Positions 5,294-11,220 of a stretch of 64,000 nt of DNA are shown here, in pieces (position 1 is the stretch's first letter; each line of letters begins with the position of its first letter). Source of the stretch: Flavicella marina (GTDB lineage: Bacteria; Bacteroidota; Bacteroidia; Flavobacteriales; Flavobacteriaceae). The notes beneath the pieces were generated by a model, which was given only the letters and a program-made list of their open reading frames with translations, was not told where the DNA came from and made no database searches. The position numbers and the translations under genes were made by a program. The stretch covers positions 248,001-312,000 of the forward strand of contig NZ_VYVA01000004.1 of the NCBI RefSeq assembly GCF_009193215.1, written 5' to 3'.

Positions 5294-5944
5294 ATGAAAA
5301 ATCTAATTGCCTCTGTTTTAATGTTAGGAACTCTTAGCATTTTTGCTCAAAACGACACCACTGCTACAACTATTGAAGTGCCAGACAATCAAAACAACAC
5401 ACAAAATGAGCAAGTTGAAGCACCGCCAAAACAGACTACCGCTAAAGATGAAAATGATAAAAAGGCGGCTGTTCCTTTTCTAAAAAAAATATATGTAGGT
5501 GGAACATTTGGTGCAACATTCGGAAATTATACATCCATAACCGTAGCTCCCACAATAGGCTATAGATTAAAACCTTCTTTATATACTGGGCTTAAGGTAT
5601 ACTATACTTATTCTACACAAAAAATTCAAGGTCAAAAATACGACTACCACAATTATGGGTTTGGTACATTTTTACGTTGGTTCGCATTTAGTGACTTGTA
5701 TGTACATATTGCCCCAGAAATCTATAGTTACGAATATTTAAGTTTAGATAACAATGCCAATGTAACCTCTACTACCGAGTGGGTGCCTTATTTATGGGCA
5801 GGTGCCGGTATTAGAAAAAGAACAAGCAAACGTTCATGGGTATCTGTGCACGTGCTGTTCGATTTGTTAAACGATAAAAATTCTCCGTTTGAACAATGGG
5901 AACCAAATGTGGTAATTGGAGCTGGTACAAGCTTTGGTAGATAA
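5294..5944 (+). CDS. Outer-membrane beta-barrel protein of unknown function
   Basis: About 216 aa from the ATG at 5294. The longer frame from 5261 would place a second hydrophobic stretch before a complete signal peptide, so I prefer MKNLIASVLMLGTLSIFAQ as the start. After a low-complexity Thr/Gln/Glu-rich linker (residues 20-55), the rest has alternating aromatic and polar residues with repeated Tyr-rich strands and Gly turns (YVGGTFGATFG, YTYSTQKIQG). It ends in a strand plus GAGTSFGR, as in small 8-strand barrels of the OmpA/PorT-like class. No catalytic motif was seen. It stands alone on the plus strand between two minus-strand clusters. Confidence 0.75.
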   Translation: MKNLIASVLMLGTLSIFAQNDTTATTIEVPDNQNNTQNEQVEAPPKQTTAKDENDKKAAVPFLKKIYVGGTFGATFGNYTSITVAPTIGYRLKPSLYTGLKVYYTYSTQKIQGQKYDYHNYGFGTFLRWFAFSDLYVHIAPEIYSYEYLSLDNNANVTSTTEWVPYLWAGAGIRKRTSKRSWVSVHVLFDLLNDKNSPFEQWEPNVVIGAGTSFGR

Positions 5945-5988
5945 ACTTAGCGCATTAATCTAACTAGGTTAAATCGTCAAAATGATCC

Positions 5989-6255
5989 TTACAGCGTTGT
6001 TTTTCCAATTGCACAACTAACAAATGATTTAACTTTTGTAGTCGTTGCGTTGGCATCTCCCTCTTTTGGGTACCCGGCTTTTAATAACATTTCTTCTACT
6101 GAGACAATGGTGTTATCATTGCTATATTGAAAAGTAATGGTACTTTCTTCTATATTGATGTTAATATCTGAAACATCTGCATGCGCAATCTTTTTACGAA
6201 TGGTATTGGCACACCCATTACATTTTAAGTTTTGAACTATAATTTTTGCTTTCAT
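5989..6255 (-). CDS. Heavy-metal-associated (HMA) domain protein
   Basis: Small soluble 88-aa protein of the ferredoxin-like HMA fold that binds soft metal ions such as Cu(I) through two cysteines. The motif is NLKCNGCANTIRKKI, with Cys12 and Cys15. The ATG follows the TAA of the upstream persulfide dioxygenase gene with no intervening base (TAAATG), so translation is likely coupled. A third Cys near the C-terminus (FVSCAIG) is outside the usual site. Association with a persulfide/thiosulfate enzyme suggests a role in thiol, sulfide or metal stress (inference). Confidence 0.85.
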   Translation of the reverse strand: MKAKIIVQNLKCNGCANTIRKKIAHADVSDININIEESTITFQYSNDNTIVSVEEMLLKAGYPKEGDANATTTKVKSFVSCAIGKTTL

Positions 6256-7662
6256 TTATTTAAGTGCTGAAGGGCAAACAAATGCCGTAGTTTTAATAGC
6301 TGTTTTTTGTATTGCTGCAAAGCCTCCTTTTACATCAATAAAGTTATGAATACCTCTTTGTTTCAATATTGAAGCCGCGATCATACTTCTATAACCACCT
6401 GCACAATGCAAATAAAAAGTTTCAACTTCTGGAAATTCTTTTAAAAATGAATTCAAATTACTCAAAGGTGTATTTTTAGCGTTTTCAATTCGCTCAGATG
6501 CAAATTCAGTTTCTTTACGTACATCAAATATTTTTGATTCCGAAGCTACTTCTGAAAATTTAACAGCATCTATACCTTCTACTTTTTCTACTTCTTTCGA
6601 TGCATTTTCCCAAGCTTTCATTCCTCCTTTCAAAACACCCAAGGTATAATCAAAACCTACTCGTGATAAACGTGTAATAGCTTCTTCTTCTTTCCCTTCT
6701 GGAGCTACTAATAGTAGTGGTTGTTTTACATCACCAATTAAGGCACCAACCCAAGGTGCAAAACCACCATTTAATCCGATGAAAATAGAATTCGGTATAT
6801 GGCTGTTTGCAAATTCATCTTGCGTTCTAACATCCAAAATCAAGGCATGACTATTTTCAGCAATCTCCTGAAACTCATCAGGTGTCAATTCATGTGTCCC
6901 TTTTTCAATAACTTCAGAAATATCTGCATACCCTTCTTTATTCATTTGAACATTCAATGGAAAATAAACTGGAGGAGCCTGTAACCCAGTAGTCACTTCT
7001 TTTACGAACTCTTCTTTTGTCATATCCGACCTCAAGGCATAGTTAGTTGCTTTTTGATCACCGAGTAAACCAACAGTTTCTTTACTCATATTTTTTCCAC
7101 AAGCAGACCCTGCACCATGACCCGGATACACCAAGACAGAATCTGGCAAGGTCATAATTTTATTTCTCAAACTATCGTATAATGTTTCAGCTAACAATTC
7201 TTTTGTCATACCCGAGGATTTTTGAGCTAAGTCTGGCCTTCCTACATCACCCAAAAACAGCGTATCTCCAGTAAAAATCGCATGTTCTTTTTTAGCTTCA
7301 TCGAAAAGTAAGAAAGTACTACTTTCCATTGTATGTCCTGGAGTGTGTAAAACCTTTATGACAATATTACCCAATGTAAATTCTTGACCATCTCTTGCAA
7401 TTACTGCATCGAAATTAGTTTCGGCATTTGGTCCATAAATAATTCTAGCTCCAGTTTTATTTGCCAAAGTAACGTGCCCACTAACGAAATCAGCATGAAA
7501 ATGAGTCTCGAAAATATATTTAATTTTCGCACCATGAGTCGTTGCCTTATCCATATATGGATGTACTTCTCGTAGTGGGTCAATAATTGCCACCTCTCCA
7601 TTACTCTCGATATAATATGCTCCTTGTGCAAGGCACCCCGTATAAATCTGTTCAATTTTCAT
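6256..7662 (-). CDS. CstB-like persulfide dioxygenase fused to two rhodanese domains
   Basis: Probable non-heme iron persulfide dioxygenase-sulfurtransferase that turns glutathione- or other persulfides into sulfite or thiosulfate. Residues 1-235 are a metallo-beta-lactamase fold with THFHADFVSGH, TPGHT, FTGDTLFLGDVGRPD and YPGHG. A first rhodanese-like domain (about 255-355) has LLVAPEGKEE where the active Cys should be, so it is degenerate. The second (about 365-465) has the catalytic loop HCAGGYRS with Cys420. This order, dioxygenase, pseudo-rhodanese, rhodanese, matches the known architecture of staphylococcal CstB. I prefer the ATG at 7662 (MKIEQIYTG); an ATG at 7671 is only about 8 nt from the predicted transcription start. 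A Crp/Fnr-like palindrome lies upstream. Confidence 0.9.
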   Translation of the reverse strand: MKIEQIYTGCLAQGAYYIESNGEVAIIDPLREVHPYMDKATTHGAKIKYIFETHFHADFVSGHVTLANKTGARIIYGPNAETNFDAVIARDGQEFTLGNIVIKVLHTPGHTMESSTFLLFDEAKKEHAIFTGDTLFLGDVGRPDLAQKSSGMTKELLAETLYDSLRNKIMTLPDSVLVYPGHGAGSACGKNMSKETVGLLGDQKATNYALRSDMTKEEFVKEVTTGLQAPPVYFPLNVQMNKEGYADISEVIEKGTHELTPDEFQEIAENSHALILDVRTQDEFANSHIPNSIFIGLNGGFAPWVGALIGDVKQPLLLVAPEGKEEEAITRLSRVGFDYTLGVLKGGMKAWENASKEVEKVEGIDAVKFSEVASESKIFDVRKETEFASERIENAKNTPLSNLNSFLKEFPEVETFYLHCAGGYRSMIAASILKQRGIHNFIDVKGGFAAIQKTAIKTTAFVCPSALK

Positions 7663-7682
7663 TTGTGTCATTTTTTATACTA

Positions 7683-7690
7683 CAAAGTTA
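7683..7690 (-). promoter_or_regulatory. -7 promoter box of the persulfide dioxygenase operon
   Basis: The minus strand reads TAACTTTG, a perfect match to the Bacteroidota TANNTTTG box. Transcription would start near 7678-7679, giving a leader of about 17 nt to the ATG at 7662. No clear TTG -33 box is present at the right distance, consistent with a promoter that needs an activator. Confidence 0.65.
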
Positions 7691-7711
7691 CAATTCAAAA
7701 TTCTTGTAACT

Positions 7712-7727
7712 TGTAACCTTTGTTACA
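7712..7727. promoter_or_regulatory. Crp/Fnr-like operator (perfect inverted repeat)
   Basis: TGTAAC-CTTT-GTTACA is a perfect 6-bp inverted repeat with a 4-bp spacer; a further TTGTAAC half-site lies next to it at 7704-7710. Its centre (7719.5) is about 41 bp upstream of the predicted start of the dioxygenase transcript, the class II activator position of Crp/Fnr regulators. The binding protein is not in this window, so the assignment is inference. Confidence 0.6.
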
Positions 7728-7743
7728 CTTGTTGTTTTAAAAC

Positions 7744-7893
7744 AAAAAATCCCAGTTAAATTAATAACTGGGATTATTACATTAAATGTTTCTATTTTTC
7801 TATGCATCAAAGGAACCTAACAACCTTTGAAGCAATCATCAAAGAAACAGAAACAATTTAAAAACTAACCAACCTAACTTTATTTCTTATGAT
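7744..7893 (-). ncRNA. Predicted small RNA, unit A of a tandem array
   Basis: Minus-strand RNA of about 150 nt predicted between the promoter at 7898-7926 and an intrinsic terminator at 7744-7775. The terminator stem is AATCCCAGTTA/TAACTGGGATT with loop TTAATT followed by six U. An upstream hairpin has a perfect 7-bp stem TCAAAGG/CCTTTGA closing the loop UUGUUAGGUU (7814-7823). A second copy of GUUAGGUU lies near the 5' end (about 7873-7880). The body differs from units B and C, but the hairpin loop and promoter are the same. No reading frame is conserved with the other units. Confidence 0.68.
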
Positions 7894-7897
7894 ACTT

Positions 7898-7926
7898 CAA
7901 AGATACTCCTAACCTCTCTTCACAAA
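7898..7926 (-). promoter_or_regulatory. Promoter of small RNA unit A
   Basis: On the minus strand TTTG (7923-7926), 17-nt spacer, TATCTTTG (7898-7905): a full match to the flavobacterial consensus. Copies 302 and 604 bp away keep both boxes. Confidence 0.75.
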
Positions 7927-7939
7927 TGCGCAAACTAAG

Positions 7940-7987
7940 TGAAACGTCTTTTTTGATAGGTGAAACGACTTATGAGATAATTGAAAC
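7940..7987 (-). promoter_or_regulatory. Phased GTTTCA repeats upstream of unit A
   Basis: GTTTCA (TGAAAC on the plus strand) starts at 7940, 7961 and 7982, that is, every 21 bp, two helical turns. The repeats sit just upstream of the -33 box, with the nearest centred about 50 bp before the predicted start. This looks like a row of activator sites on one DNA face (inference). Confidence 0.55.
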
Positions 7988-8032
7988 AAATTATAAGAAA
8001 AAACAAGCTCTTTCTACCTAACTTTTAGGCAT

Positions 8033-8195
8033 AAAAAAAATCCTGGAACCTAACAACCAGGATTTTTTTACTTTAAAATTCTTTCTGAAAATTCTATGAA
8101 AAACAAGAACCTAACAACTTCTTTTTCAATTCTCAAACAATCAGTGAACCTTAAATACTAAACCAATCTAAATATGAAAATTATTATTTTTCTAT
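8033..8195 (-). ncRNA. Predicted small RNA, unit B of a tandem array
   Basis: Minus-strand RNA of about 163 nt. Hairpin 1 has stem GAAAAAGAAG/CTTGTTTTTC (one mismatch) closing the loop UUGUUAGGUU (8108-8117). The terminator hairpin (8033-8069) has stem ATCCTGG/CCAGGAT, extended by A-U pairs, and closes the same loop (8047-8056) before a run of eight U. The same decamer is thus displayed twice in one RNA. Unit C is nearly identical. The plus-strand open frame across this unit is not conserved in the other copies. Confidence 0.72.
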
Positions 8196-8199
8196 ACCC

Positions 8200-8228
8200 C
8201 AAAGATATTTCTAACTTCTCTTCACAAA
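8200..8228 (-). promoter_or_regulatory. Promoter of small RNA unit B
   Basis: Minus strand TTTG (8225-8228), 17-nt spacer, TATCTTTG (8200-8207). Spacer bases differ from copies 1 and 3, yet both boxes and their distance are kept. Confidence 0.75.
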
Positions 8229-8241
8229 TCTATAAACTAAG

Positions 8242-8289
8242 TGAAACGTCTTTTTTGATAGGTGAAACGACTTATGAGATAATTGAAAC
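8242..8289 (-). promoter_or_regulatory. Phased GTTTCA repeats upstream of unit B
   Basis: GTTTCA elements (TGAAAC on plus) start at 8242, 8263 and 8284, again exactly 21 bp apart, in the same position relative to the promoter as in unit A. Confidence 0.55.
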
Positions 8290-8334
8290 AAATTATAAGA
8301 AAAAACAAGCTCTTTCTACTTCACTTTTAGGCAT

Positions 8335-8497
8335 AAAAAAAATCCTGGAACCTAACAACCAGGATTTTTTCACTTTAAAATTCTTTCTGAAAACTCTATG
8401 AAAAACAAGAACCTAACAACTTCTTTTTCAATCCTCAAACAATCAGTGAATCTTAAATACTAAACCAATCTAAATATGAAAATTATTATTTTTCTAT
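8335..8497 (-). ncRNA. Predicted small RNA, unit C of a tandem array
   Basis: Near-duplicate of unit B, about 163 nt on the minus strand. Hairpin 1 loop UUGUUAGGUU lies at 8410-8419 and the terminator loop at 8349-8358. The terminator (8335-8370) ends in eight U. The few base differences from unit B fall outside the loops and terminator stem. Confidence 0.72.
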
Positions 8498-8501
8498 ACC
8501 C

Positions 8502-8530
8502 CAAAGATACTCCTAACCTCTCTTCACAAA
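8502..8530 (-). promoter_or_regulatory. Promoter of small RNA unit C
   Basis: Minus strand TTTG (8527-8530), 17-nt spacer, TATCTTTG (8502-8509); identical to the unit A promoter. Confidence 0.75.
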
Positions 8531-8543
8531 TGCGCAAACTAAG

Positions 8544-8600
8544 TGAAACGTCTTTTTTGATGCGTGAAACGACATTTTTAACATCCGAAGCGATTGAAAC
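8544..8600 (-). promoter_or_regulatory. GTTTCA repeats upstream of unit C, third site displaced
   Basis: GTTTCA elements (TGAAAC on plus) start at 8544, 8565 and 8595. The first two keep the 21-bp step; the third is 30 bp on, with a degenerate copy (CGAAGC) at the expected 8586. Confidence 0.45.
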
Positions 8601-8603
8601 AAA

Positions 8604-8791
8604 AAATCTCTAAAAAAGAGAAAAGACCTAACAAAAATTTGCTCGGCCTTTTCGGTCTCAGGGTAGTTTAGATTGTTGTAATAGTACGATCTAACAGCAT
8701 AATAAAACACCTTCTCTAAACCATACTAATCCTGAAAAAAATCAACTAATATTAACTTACAAAAATGACCTCAACTAAAAATCAGATTTGT
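8604..8791 (-). ncRNA. Possible diverged fourth small RNA (unit D)
   Basis: Weak candidate. On the minus strand a hairpin AAAAGGCC/GGTCTTTT (8621-8652) contains UUUGUUAG at the 3' side of its loop and is followed by U-runs (8612-8617 and 8601-8606), like a terminator. A one-mismatch -7 box TATCTTTA lies at 8796-8803 and a GTTTCA element at 8859-8864. No -33 box was found. Confidence 0.3.
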
Positions 8792-8880
8792 ATTTTAAAG
8801 ATACAATAGTCTGTAACTGATCTTTCGGATTCTAATATGAAGTGGATAAAAAACCTGATGAAACACCCTTTTGGCAAGGC

Positions 8881-8914
8881 AAAAAAAATCCACTCAATGA
8901 AGTGGATTTTTTTT
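8881..8914. terminator. Intrinsic terminator of trmH
   Basis: Stem ATCCACT/AGTGGAT, loop CAATGA, flanked by A7 and T8, so it can work on both strands. It overlaps the trmH stop codon and separates trmH from the small RNA array. Confidence 0.8.
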
Positions 8915-9581
8915 AATTTGTTTCTTCGTAACGTTTCATTACACTGTCGATACTTTTAATAGACTTCTTGAGCCAATTCAAGTAGATTTCTTCACTTTCT
9001 TTTTCAGACAATTCCCAATCTACGCCACTTTTTCTCATCCTAGTTGAAACATCTTGCAATACAATAGCAGCAGCGACTGATACATTCAAACTCTCGGTAA
9101 AACCATACATAGGTACTTTTAAATGACCGTCTGCTTGTTCCAACATCATTTTAGAAACACCTTCTTTTTCAACACCAAATACAAAAGCAGATTTTTTTGT
9201 AACATCAAAATCACCAACAAATCTAGAAGTTTCATGTGGTGTTGTAGCAATGATTTGATAGCCCTGTGCCCGAACAGCATCTATACAAGCTTGTGTATTG
9301 TGTTCTTGTTGGTTGTACCTATGAAATGTCAACCATTTTTGTGAACCTTTACCTACTTGATTCGAAACATAGGTTTTGTACTTATTTTCTATAATATGCA
9401 TGTCTTGAATTCCGAAAACCTCGCAACTTCTAGTAATAGCACTTGTATTGTGTTTTTGGTACAAATCTTCCAAAATTACAGAAAAGTGACGCGTTCTATT
9501 TTTCAACACTTCCTGAAAAATTTCTTTGCGTTCTTCTGTAACTAAATCCTCTAAAAAAGCAGTTAATTTCTTAACATCCAT
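8913..9581 (-). CDS. trmH: tRNA (guanosine(18)-2'-O)-methyltransferase, SpoU family
   Basis: S-adenosylmethionine-dependent 2'-O-methylation of G18 in the tRNA D-loop. The 222-aa protein has the three knotted-methyltransferase (SPOUT) motifs: NTSAITRSCEVFGIQDMH (residues 45-62), FGVEKEGVSKMM (about 133-144) and PMYGFTESLNVSVAAAI (about 156-172). N-terminal residues 1-40 and a C-terminal extension with SEKESEEIYLNWLKKSI match TrmH length. rRNA-modifying relatives of the SpoU family share these motifs, so the substrate is likely but not proven. Six nt separate it from the upstream DUF6495 gene stop, suggesting one transcript. Confidence 0.87.
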   Translation of the reverse strand: MDVKKLTAFLEDLVTEERKEIFQEVLKNRTRHFSVILEDLYQKHNTSAITRSCEVFGIQDMHIIENKYKTYVSNQVGKGSQKWLTFHRYNQQEHNTQACIDAVRAQGYQIIATTPHETSRFVGDFDVTKKSAFVFGVEKEGVSKMMLEQADGHLKVPMYGFTESLNVSVAAAIVLQDVSTRMRKSGVDWELSEKESEEIYLNWLKKSIKSIDSVMKRYEETN

Positions 9582-9587
9582 TCGAAC

Positions 9588-10061
9588 TTATTTTTTTATT
9601 ATTTGAGCAATTGATTTGTATAAATGTCCTTTAGTCATAATCCCTCCTTTTTCAACCAAATCAAACAATTCTTCATTTCGTTCTTTGGTATAATTTTTAT
9701 GCGCGTAGAAATACTCTAAACTTGTATCACCTGCATTTTTGCTCAACCATTCAATGCCTTCTTTTTTCAAAAAATTTATAGAAGAATTTGTTGTTTTCAC
9801 CATAATACGTTCTATTAATGTAGACTGACATTTAAATAAATTGATACTCGTTTGCGAATAATGCTCAATAAATTCTGTTTTGGTCAACACATCATCCCAA
9901 ACAACATCGCTAAATATATTCAATTCTTCTTCAGCAACTTCTGGCTTTTCTATTTTAATGGTATCCCATTCTTTTACGTCAATTTTTTGAGACGCTAAAA
10001 ACCTTGCAAACTCCTCATGTAGTTCTTCAAATTGTTCTTTGGTTAGTTGTCTATATTTCAT
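9588..10061 (-). CDS. Conserved flavobacterial protein, DUF6495-like
   Basis: 157-aa soluble protein with no signal peptide or membrane segment. The N-terminus (MKYRQLTKEQFEELHEEFAR) resembles the flavobacterial DUF6495 family as I recall it. The body is acidic and helical; the C-terminus (IMTKGHLYKSIAQIIKK) is basic. Two ATG codons are adjacent (10064 and 10061); I chose the second. It sits between a racemase-like gene and trmH on the same strand, with 20 nt and 6 nt gaps. Function unknown. Confidence 0.75.
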   Translation of the reverse strand: MKYRQLTKEQFEELHEEFARFLASQKIDVKEWDTIKIEKPEVAEEELNIFSDVVWDDVLTKTEFIEHYSQTSINLFKCQSTLIERIMVKTTNSSINFLKKEGIEWLSKNAGDTSLEYFYAHKNYTKERNEELFDLVEKGGIMTKGHLYKSIAQIIKK

Positions 10062-10081
10062 CATTCTTATTTATTAACGTC

Positions 10082-10702
10082 TTATTTCAGTTGTTTTAAA
10101 ATTGTTTTTACTCCATAAGCGGGACTTGTGTAAATTTCTTTACTATACCCCTTAGCTTTTTCTATAGCACCCTCCATTGATGCTTGTGCTAAAAACACTA
10201 CGTCCACGGCATCTTGTTTTTCCAATAAACATTTTGCTATTTCCGATTCATATCGTTCAAAATCATTCTGCAGGTAATAGGTCCAAGCAGAAGAACAATC
10301 TATAGGGATAATCTCTATTGATTTACCCTGAGATTTAGCTGCTTCAGATAGTAAAACCGTACTTGCTAATTTGGTTGAATTCGCTGTGAATGCCAATCCG
10401 ATTTTTTTATAATTCTCCGATAAATAATTTGCAATGGGTCTATCGATTCGATGTACATTTTGTGTTGCGTCACAGGCAGTTCCTAAAGTTGAACATGTGC
10501 AAATAACCAACATTGGATCTGTTTTTTCAATCTTATTAATTTGATCTACAAATTTTATTTGATTGACTTCACCCATTTCTATCGCTTCAGCAAGTAAGGA
10601 CTCATTTACAAAATGCTGTATCTCAATATCAGAATTGAATTCTCTAACTAGGTTTTCGAATTTCGGAATGTGAATTTTAGAAGTATGTAGAAATGCTATC
10701 AT
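10082..10702 (-). CDS. Asp/Glu racemase-superfamily-like protein
   Basis: 206-aa cytoplasmic protein. ICTCSTLGTACD around Cys70 resembles the first catalytic-cysteine loop of aspartate/glutamate/hydantoin racemases (C-N/S-T), and IPIDCSSAW near Cys136 could provide the second. A Thr-Ala-Asn segment (FTANSTKLASTV) lies between them, as in that fold. The substrate is unknown, and the family includes members without racemase activity. It heads the three-gene run ending with trmH. Confidence 0.6.
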   Translation of the reverse strand: MIAFLHTSKIHIPKFENLVREFNSDIEIQHFVNESLLAEAIEMGEVNQIKFVDQINKIEKTDPMLVICTCSTLGTACDATQNVHRIDRPIANYLSENYKKIGLAFTANSTKLASTVLLSEAAKSQGKSIEIIPIDCSSAWTYYLQNDFERYESEIAKCLLEKQDAVDVVFLAQASMEGAIEKAKGYSKEIYTSPAYGVKTILKQLK

Positions 10703-10720
10703 AACTATGTCAATATAAAT

Positions 10721-10755
10721 AAAAAATCCACTAGCTCAATGAGTAGTGGATTTTT
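10721..10755. terminator. Intrinsic terminator after rplI
   Basis: Stem ATCCACTA/TAGTGGAT with loop GCTCAATGAG, flanked by A6 and T5. It closes the rpsF-rpsR-rplI operon on the minus strand. Confidence 0.75.
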
Positions 10756-10773
10756 ATATGATGTAATGTAAAA

Positions 10774-11220
10774 TTACTCAGCGATGATATCGAAAGTAAA
10801 CTCAGCAATAACAGTTCTGTGCAATCTTGCAACAGCATTGTATTTACCAGTTCTTTTGATCAATCCACCAGTTACTTTGATGAATTTTTTATCGATCTCA
10901 ACACCTGCTTTAGAAATTGCCTCAGCAACATCTATATTAGAAACAGAACCAAATAATTTAGTTCCCTCACCAACTTTAGCAGCAATTTTAATTTCTAATC
11001 CTTTGATAGCTTCTGCTACTTTCGCAGCTTCTTCTACAACTTTAGCCTCTTTAAAAGCACGTTGCTTTAAGTTTTCAGCTAATACTTTTTTAGCAGATCC
11101 TGTTGCTAAAACTGCATGTCCTTGAGGAATCAAAAAGTTTCTTCCGTATCCGTTTTTCACAGTTACGATATCATCTTTAAATCCTAAGTTTTCTACGTCT
11201 TGTTTTAATATAACTTCCAT
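10774..11220 (-). CDS. rplI: 50S ribosomal protein L9
   Basis: Component of the large ribosomal subunit that binds 23S rRNA. The 148-aa length and the N-terminal signature EVILKQDVENLGFKDDIVTV followed by GYGRNFLIPQG are typical. The C-terminal domain has the LFGSVSNIDVAEAI segment. Last gene of the rpsF-rpsR-rplI operon, 15 nt after rpsR. Confidence 0.98.
   Translation of the reverse strand: MEVILKQDVENLGFKDDIVTVKNGYGRNFLIPQGHAVLATGSAKKVLAENLKQRAFKEAKVVEEAAKVAEAIKGLEIKIAAKVGEGTKLFGSVSNIDVAEAISKAGVEIDKKFIKVTGGLIKRTGKYNAVARLHRTVIAEFTFDIIAE

Follow-up and report, generated by a model that had tools for sequence, protein, structure and literature searches.

The window, a 64-kb stretch of the Flavicella marina genome (G000 below; 3.16 Mb), contains a gap of 1.24 kb without a convincing gene (7672-8912), situated between a SpoU-type methylase gene and a metallo-beta-lactamase/rhodanese gene. 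A preliminary description of this locus had placed there three minus-strand promoters of the form TTTG-N17-TATCTTTG, exactly 302 bp apart, each followed 150-163 nt later by an intrinsic terminator, and both observations held on re-examination. The three promoter matches are separated by 302 and 302 bp (Table 1), and scanning both strands of the window for TTTG-N17-TAnnTTTG yielded no match beyond these three. When the region 7701-8950 was resampled with a first-order Markov model (n = 2000), the mean was 0.03 promoter matches, and three were reached in 0 of 2000 samples. The repeat families D1 and D2, found in a repeat search of the window, also have a spacing of 302 bp. With the +1 placed by setting the TAnnTTTG box at -12 to -5, after PMC9723704, the AT-rich predicted units u3, u2 and u1 measure 164, 164 and 150 nt, and each ends in a terminator hairpin with a T run. 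Of the three terminators, an automated scan detected u1's alone; the loop limit of the scan was 8 nt, and the loops of the u2 and u3 terminators are 10 nt long. Units u2 and u3 are identical at 285 of 300 positions; u1 is more distant. After the u1 terminator and before the metallo-beta-lactamase/rhodanese gene come a TAACTTTG box and a palindrome, TGTAAC-N4-GTTACA (7712-7727), which we take to be Crp/Fnr-like; in a second Flavicella genome (G004, locus L032), TGTAAC-N4-GTTACT precedes SulP and also the metallo-beta-lactamase/rhodanese gene.

The preliminary description had also seen no convincing protein gene in this stretch of about 1.2 kb, and we concur. The gap holds two ORFs of at least 50 aa, neither of them convincing; a 65-aa GTG frame (8513-8710, minus strand) crosses the u3 operator, and one of 75 aa (8174-8401, plus strand) is antisense to u2 and u3. 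A comparison with Rfam, suggested at that stage to find out whether the RNAs belong to the Flavo-1 family, returned no match at gathering score in the 64-kb window, which excludes Flavo-1 and the other Rfam 15 families. A permissive Rfam scan of 7600-9000, up to E 5, gave 20 matches, all far under gathering scores; GibS and BTnc231 were the only Bacteroides families among them, far below threshold.

Table 1. Features of the array, its flanks and the lipoprotein cluster (window coordinates unless a locus is named; transcripts and their ends are predicted)
Feature	Coordinates	Strand	Basis or remark
SpoU-type methylase gene	8913-9581	minus	upstream flank of array
u4 operator: GTTTCA (8864) and ACTTCA (8843), 21 bp apart	8838-8864	minus	
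u4 promoter box TATCTTTA, at the u1-u3 distance from the last repeat (40 bp); TTTG -33 element missing	8796-8803	minus	
u4 divergent unit (putative transcript), terminator ~8653-8614	8614-8791	minus	aligns with G001 unit, L220:4038-4212
u3 operator: GTTTCA at 8570 and 8549, weak repeat GCTTCG at 8591; 21-bp steps	8544-8591	minus	
u3 promoter TTTG-N17-TATCTTTG	8502-8530	minus	pattern match
u3 small RNA, ~164 nt, putative +1 to terminator end	8334-8497	minus	homologue in G004 (L032:3304-3474)
u3 first hairpin, loop UUGUUAGGUU at 8410-8419	8395-8433	minus	fold and covariation
u3 terminator hairpin, same loop UUGUUAGGUU at 8349-8358	8335-8371	minus	fold
u2 operator: GTTTCA x3 at 8289, 8268 and 8247; 21-bp steps	8242-8289	minus	
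u2 promoter TTTG-N17-TATCTTTG	8200-8228	minus	pattern match
u2 small RNA, ~164 nt (predicted); loops at 8108-8117 and 8047-8056; terminator hairpin 8069-8033	8032-8195	minus	alignment and fold
u1 operator: GTTTCA x3 at 7987, 7966 and 7945; 21-bp steps	7940-7987	minus	
u1 promoter TTTG-N17-TATCTTTG	7898-7926	minus	pattern match
u1 small RNA, ~150 nt (predicted); loop at 7814-7823; terminator hairpin 7778-7744 with different loop	7744-7893	minus	
Metallo-beta-lactamase/rhodanese gene	6256-7671	minus	downstream flank of array
Six paralogous lipoprotein genes	L031 (G000:C17) 5470-10858	minus	two identical over 247 aa

We compared the locus with five other Flavicella genomes (G001-G005) and found units in three of the six genomes examined, G000, G004 and G001. 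In G004, at least two units, uA and uB, stand at a contig edge and are followed by SulP and then by the same metallo-beta-lactamase/rhodanese gene; a G004 copy of the SpoU methylase was not found. Two unit types probably predate the split between G000 and G004, since u3-uA and u1-uB are the best-scoring cross-genome pairs (228 and 155, compared with 147 for u3-uB and 126 for u1-uA). At a DNA identity of about 77%, the promoter, the operator phasing, the loop and the compensated stems are still in place. The idea that duplication gave rise to a multicopy small RNA family gained support from these homologues in a second genome, with their compensatory stem changes, identical loop and lack of a kept frame; at least two homologous units have a promoter and a terminator of their own. 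That the family has been kept active, as was also proposed, is suggested by the fact that promoter, operator and hairpin are all conserved.

The preliminary description correctly recognised the feature and its class and lacked three elements: a degenerate fourth unit, u4 (8864-8614), the 21-bp repeats and the repeated loop. u4 resembles the single G001 unit (z 7.2; 0/300 shuffles score as well). Against the remaining units, shuffles scored as well as u4 in 22/300 (u3), 213/300 (u1), 1/300 (uA) and 3/300 (uB) cases, and as well as the G001 unit in 4/300 (u3), 23/300 (u1), 135/300 (uA) and 0/300 (uB). Since u4 and the G001 unit resemble the other units weakly or not at all, their membership rests on location and operator-promoter geometry. 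The G001 unit sits two genes on from the methylase, and in G001, G002, G003 and G005 (L120-L123) no more than about 60 bp separate the end of the SpoU methylase from another gene.

No unit was found outside the three Flavicella genomes by DNA search, pattern scan or covariance model. The DNA search of 40 relatives gave matches at E<=1 in 40/40; among the matches listed, those below 1e-6 were in G000 and G004 only and the next best was 5.5e-4, and at E<=0.001 two of the six Flavicella genomes had a match. A pattern scan for two loops and a T run, which misses units with one loop or a changed loop, covered 84,980 species and returned 81 stretches, 80 of them listed as loci; five loci had further matches, and the first match in each of the 80 was read. 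Among these first matches, only L114, identical to the G004 contig, has both loops on complementary stems before the T run. Very many of the other loci were TTAGG-rich repeats. The covariance-model check within the family, also suggested earlier, matched one of 397 genomes, the window's own, a weak negative with 7 candidates scored per genome; G004 is not among the genomes listed for it. In a further model search the strong matches were the five model-building sequences, and the next best (E 0.043 and 0.058) were taken as chance. In the best-ranked titles and abstracts of the open-access literature the RNA family is not described, and among the best 10 of 9,354 papers in one such ranking none names Flavicella. 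We regard the array as a new candidate family of a known kind, with a range that is narrow as far as these searches reach.

An alignment of the five units u1, u2 and u3 (G000) and uA and uB (G004) has 176 columns, 70 of which are invariant, and its longest invariant run is the 12-nt GTTGTTAGGTTC. This run folds as a 10-nt loop, UUGUUAGGUU, closed by a G-C pair, in a hairpin present in each RNA. The terminator bears the identical loop in u2, u3 and uA and a different loop in u1 and uB. The covariation test used these five sequences, two of them near-identical, with 500 shuffles and slid versions as control. In the loop-bearing stem, 87.5% of 40 cells were paired and 6/8 pairs had double-sided changes; the covariation score was 0.65 versus 0.245 in shuffles (reached in 0/500), and slid versions attained at most 0.438. 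One of five stem measures was unremarkable (7 further pair types versus 5.0; 56/500 shuffles). RNAalifold, unaided, recovered the same loop hairpin with compensated pairs inside, and the out-of-register terminators of u1 and uB made its overall covariation term unfavourable (+1.44). Compared with shuffles, whole-RNA folds were clearly stable for u1 (z -5.1) and modestly so for u3 (z -2.6) and uB (z -2.1), and the uA fold was not better than shuffles (z -1.3; 17/200). The loop hairpins of G004 were barely above shuffles (z -0.66 and -0.44), and the minimum-energy fold of uB does not contain the loop hairpin. The alignment and its covariation show a non-coding structure conserved across species, weaker in single folds. 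Homologues that keep a protein frame instead of the hairpins, named in the preliminary description as the finding that would speak against it, were not encountered: no small ORF is common to the five units. With one or two copies in each RNA and several genes that carry it, a fixed loop on a drifting stem is a natural contact site. Elsewhere in G000, a terminator-like hairpin (L242; G000:C7:921993-922020) has the stem AACCTAACAAA/TTTGTTAGGTT, in which the loop sequence forms a stem arm.

Upstream of each promoter we noted YTTCA repeats with a 21-bp period. The exact GTTTCA occurs three times in u1 and u2, u3 has two repeats and a weak one, u4 has two, and in each of the four window units 40 bp separate the start of the last repeat from the promoter box. 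Repeats with the same period were read by eye before G004 uB and the G001 unit; the region before G004 uA is cut off by the contig end. As outlined in PMC11347149, LytTR operators are 9-bp direct repeats 10-13 bp apart, those of RcoM1 and CoxC consist of three repeats, and direct repeats at a 19-22-bp period upstream of a promoter mark a LytTR regulon; the repeats of the array have this arrangement. The 21-bp direct-repeat sites are putative LytTR-type operators, and the sRNA family is probably LytTR-controlled. G000 encodes eight LytTR domains, none of them on contig C17 and the nearest about 100 kb from the array. The repeats near these eight genes included many weak operator-like ones and none that was outstanding, and none of the eight domains could be linked to the operator sites; a LytTR protein may be what acts at the array.

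The same operator-promoter geometry also precedes lipoprotein genes in two Flavicella genomes, G000 and G004, and more weakly in a third, G001. The pattern used, YTTCA-N16-YTTCACTTAG-N29-TAnnTTT, was devised after seeing the G000 unit and C17 lipoprotein sites. Six sites in G000 match it exactly, one at each of the three units and one at each of three lipoprotein promoters, of which two are mutual copies. With up to three mismatches, matches versus reversed control were 16 vs 7 in G000, 13 vs 8 in G004, 12 vs 10 in G001, 10 vs 11 in G002, 2 vs 3 in G003 and 3 vs 6 in G005. Outside the sites from which the pattern was made, a site at G000 C17:120693 (3 mismatches) lies before a lipoprotein gene, and the syntenic cluster on G004 contig C111 has three sites before lipoprotein genes, with 2, 3 and 2 mismatches, the start codon of the gene after the last one being taken slightly inside the longest frame. 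Two 4-mismatch sites precede lipoprotein genes in G001 (C1:365k). Five loci scanned at up to 5 mismatches gave seven matches: the G001 unit with 3 mismatches, the two G001 lipoprotein sites with 4, and four more with 5. A site at C15:94676, one mismatch from the operator pattern and upstream of a RecQ-like helicase, was taken as chance. A search of 249 family genomes found the lipoprotein family in two, G000 and G001, and showed G002 to be without it; G004 has it by synteny. No Pfam match was obtained for the four lipoproteins scanned and no PDB match for a profile of nine, one of which is weakly like Mfa1 fimbriae (E 0.0041). The sequence GGGTATA directly follows the promoter box in u2 (8199-8193), in u3 (8501-8495) and in the duplicated C17 lipoprotein promoters at 122894 and 121637, hinting at a shared promoter origin or at a role of the first transcribed bases. 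Judged by this common geometry, the array and a set of surface lipoproteins appear to be under one control switch.

We then asked where the invariant loop might pair. Its complement, AACCTAACAA, occurs off the array at 18 sites in G000 and 16 in G004, compared with 34 and 36 for the reversed control; loop complements are not enriched genome-wide in either genome and are fewer than the control. Eight of these 34 off-array complements fall within -60 to +20 of an ORF start. The start-site background in a 400-kb sample was 4.0% for permuted decamers (108/2681) and 6.6% for two-mismatch decamers (43/654), and single permuted decamers ranged from 0 to 13.9% (at most 11/79). In this post hoc comparison, the nominal p of the excess was 5e-5 at a background of 4% and 0.0013 at 6.5%; with PspC homologues counted once and a terminator-hairpin site dropped, 6/32 remained (p 0.0015 at 4%, 0.016 at 6.5%). 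The G000 genes with a complement at the start include those for an alginate lyase (C7:589994), a GH30 enzyme (C7:701311) and PspC, and those of G004 encode a sigma-70-family factor, PspC and a protein with a sub-threshold pectate-lyase-like match. An exact loop complement is kept 49 nt before the PspC start in both genomes (L254, G000:C13:391507; L241, G004:C84:13774). The site falls within the last part of a short gene upstream and belongs to one of several identical stretches there; coding constraint may therefore account for its conservation. Duplex energies for 288 genes in 400 kb revealed no excess of strong partners (103/200 permuted loops were as good). Among the top 10, 20 and 30 partners, exported proteins were not clearly overrepresented (59/200, 25/200 and 25/200). 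As loop partners, 12 of 13 lipoprotein start regions were ordinary or poor, ranking 0.32 or worse and so in or near the weaker two thirds, and one ranked 0.08.

We propose that the locus is a LytTR-type-switched array of sibling sRNA genes, co-controlled with lipoproteins, whose invariant loop pairs with mRNAs in trans, a model that we hold to be moderately probable. The siblings would comprise three intact units and one divergent one. A regulator binding the 21-bp-spaced direct repeats, most likely of LytTR type, would turn on the array and, together with it, the Flavicella-specific surface lipoprotein cluster. Each 150-164-nt RNA would display the 10-nt loop on a hairpin, u2 and u3 doing so again on the terminator, and several gene copies would supply dose. 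The loop would be the active part, most likely pairing in trans with mRNAs near their start codons, so that translation is repressed.

It is also possible, if on the doubtful side, that the loop is the site of an RNA-binding protein and the array a CsrB/RsmZ-like sponge that frees protein-held mRNAs. A single 10-nt loop that recurs in all three sibling genes, each time on a stem of another sequence, would suit such a decoy, as would the weak or negative outcome of the antisense target tests. RNAs of the CsrB/RsmZ type carry many GGA-containing loops that bind CsrA/RsmA; the array RNAs carry UUGUUAGGUU at one or two sites each, far fewer than CsrB, and titration does not predict an excess of loop complements at start sites. 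Since the target tests were weak or negative, we prefer pairing only slightly over titration. An unlikely, more specific version has a LytTR-controlled decoy titrating an undescribed Bacteroidota RNA-binding protein that recognises UUAGGU, tied to the switch of a lineage-specific lipoprotein coat. If the decoy reading were true, the array would parallel CsrB/CsrA in function and yet consist of unrelated components.

Other explanations leave aside a trans-acting RNA altogether. All units are oriented towards the metallo-beta-lactamase/rhodanese gene, as 5' leaders or attenuators of a downstream gene would be; this is very improbable, given that another unit with its own promoter box comes after each of u2, u3 and u4, that the downstream gene is metallo-beta-lactamase/rhodanese in G000 and SulP in G004, that the nearest listed gene downstream of the G001 unit is convergent, and that the palindrome and the TAACTTTG box intervene between the u1 terminator and the gene. 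We likewise give very little credence to a decaying tandem repeat without function: the patchy occurrence within Flavicella and the missing -33 element of u4 fit decay, and the persistence of promoter, operator phasing, loop and compensated stems despite sequence divergence speaks against it. Small-protein genes are scarcely credible. Frames of 10-27 aa with ATG, TTG or GTG starts do cover the loop in 4/5 units, opening with TTG or GTG and running for 22-27 residues in u2, u3 and G004 uB and for 10 residues from an ATG in u1, but these frames vary in length, none is open in G004 uA, and the substitutions in the stem conform to base-pairing.

To our knowledge, few regulatory RNAs of Flavobacteriaceae have known roles. 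An array of sibling, base-pairing sRNA genes would offer in this family a defined promoter, a candidate operator, one invariant loop to mutate and a set of co-switched surface lipoproteins; its trigger and targets are therefore directly testable. What the present analysis adds to the preliminary description is the invariant loop with its covarying stems, a fourth unit, homologous units in two other genomes and the operator common with the lipoprotein cluster. The family has been called understudied (PMC9723704). According to the same paper, the Rfp sRNAs of Flavobacterium psychrophilum, also Flavobacteriaceae, have a similar length (median 176 nt) and the same TAnnTTTG consensus, and Rfp18, which we compared by description only, is predicted to pair with mRNAs via one stem-loop; a tandem array is not described in the cited part of that work. 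Flavo-1 of Rfam is, like our units, a structured RNA motif of Flavobacteriaceae, but has no match in the window.

Sibling sRNAs under one activating response regulator are represented by the csRNAs under CiaR in Streptococcus, two of which lie in tandem, and by Qrr under LuxO in Vibrio, as summarised in PMC4211561. Those RNAs belong to other phyla and, as far as Rfam tells, have other sequences, and the putative Flavicella operator is a 21-bp LytTR-type repeat. The LytTR operators of RcoM1 and CoxC, in the account given by PMC11347149, likewise consist of three direct repeats near the promoter, spaced by two helical turns, and that of RcoM1, TTCNNGCA, has a TTC core as in the array repeats; these systems are proteobacterial and CoxC is a repressor, whereas the Flavicella regulator is putative. 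Within the Bacteroidota, the FopS sRNAs of Bacteroides thetaiotaomicron are likewise multicopy and paralogous, have housekeeping-type promoters and act at mRNA starts, in the portrayal of PMC11697453. The FopS RNAs are described there as about 65-70 nt long, with a single-stranded 5' seed and a terminator, and their 14 copies are classed as intergenic, antisense or 3'-UTR-derived; the array RNAs, in contrast, are about 150-164 nt long, carry a seed-like loop on hairpins and are arranged in tandem. The Rfam search gave no match, and in length and layout the array RNAs depart from this description (PMC11697453). Beside FopS, the Flavicella array would suggest that multicopy sRNAs have arisen more than once in Bacteroidota.
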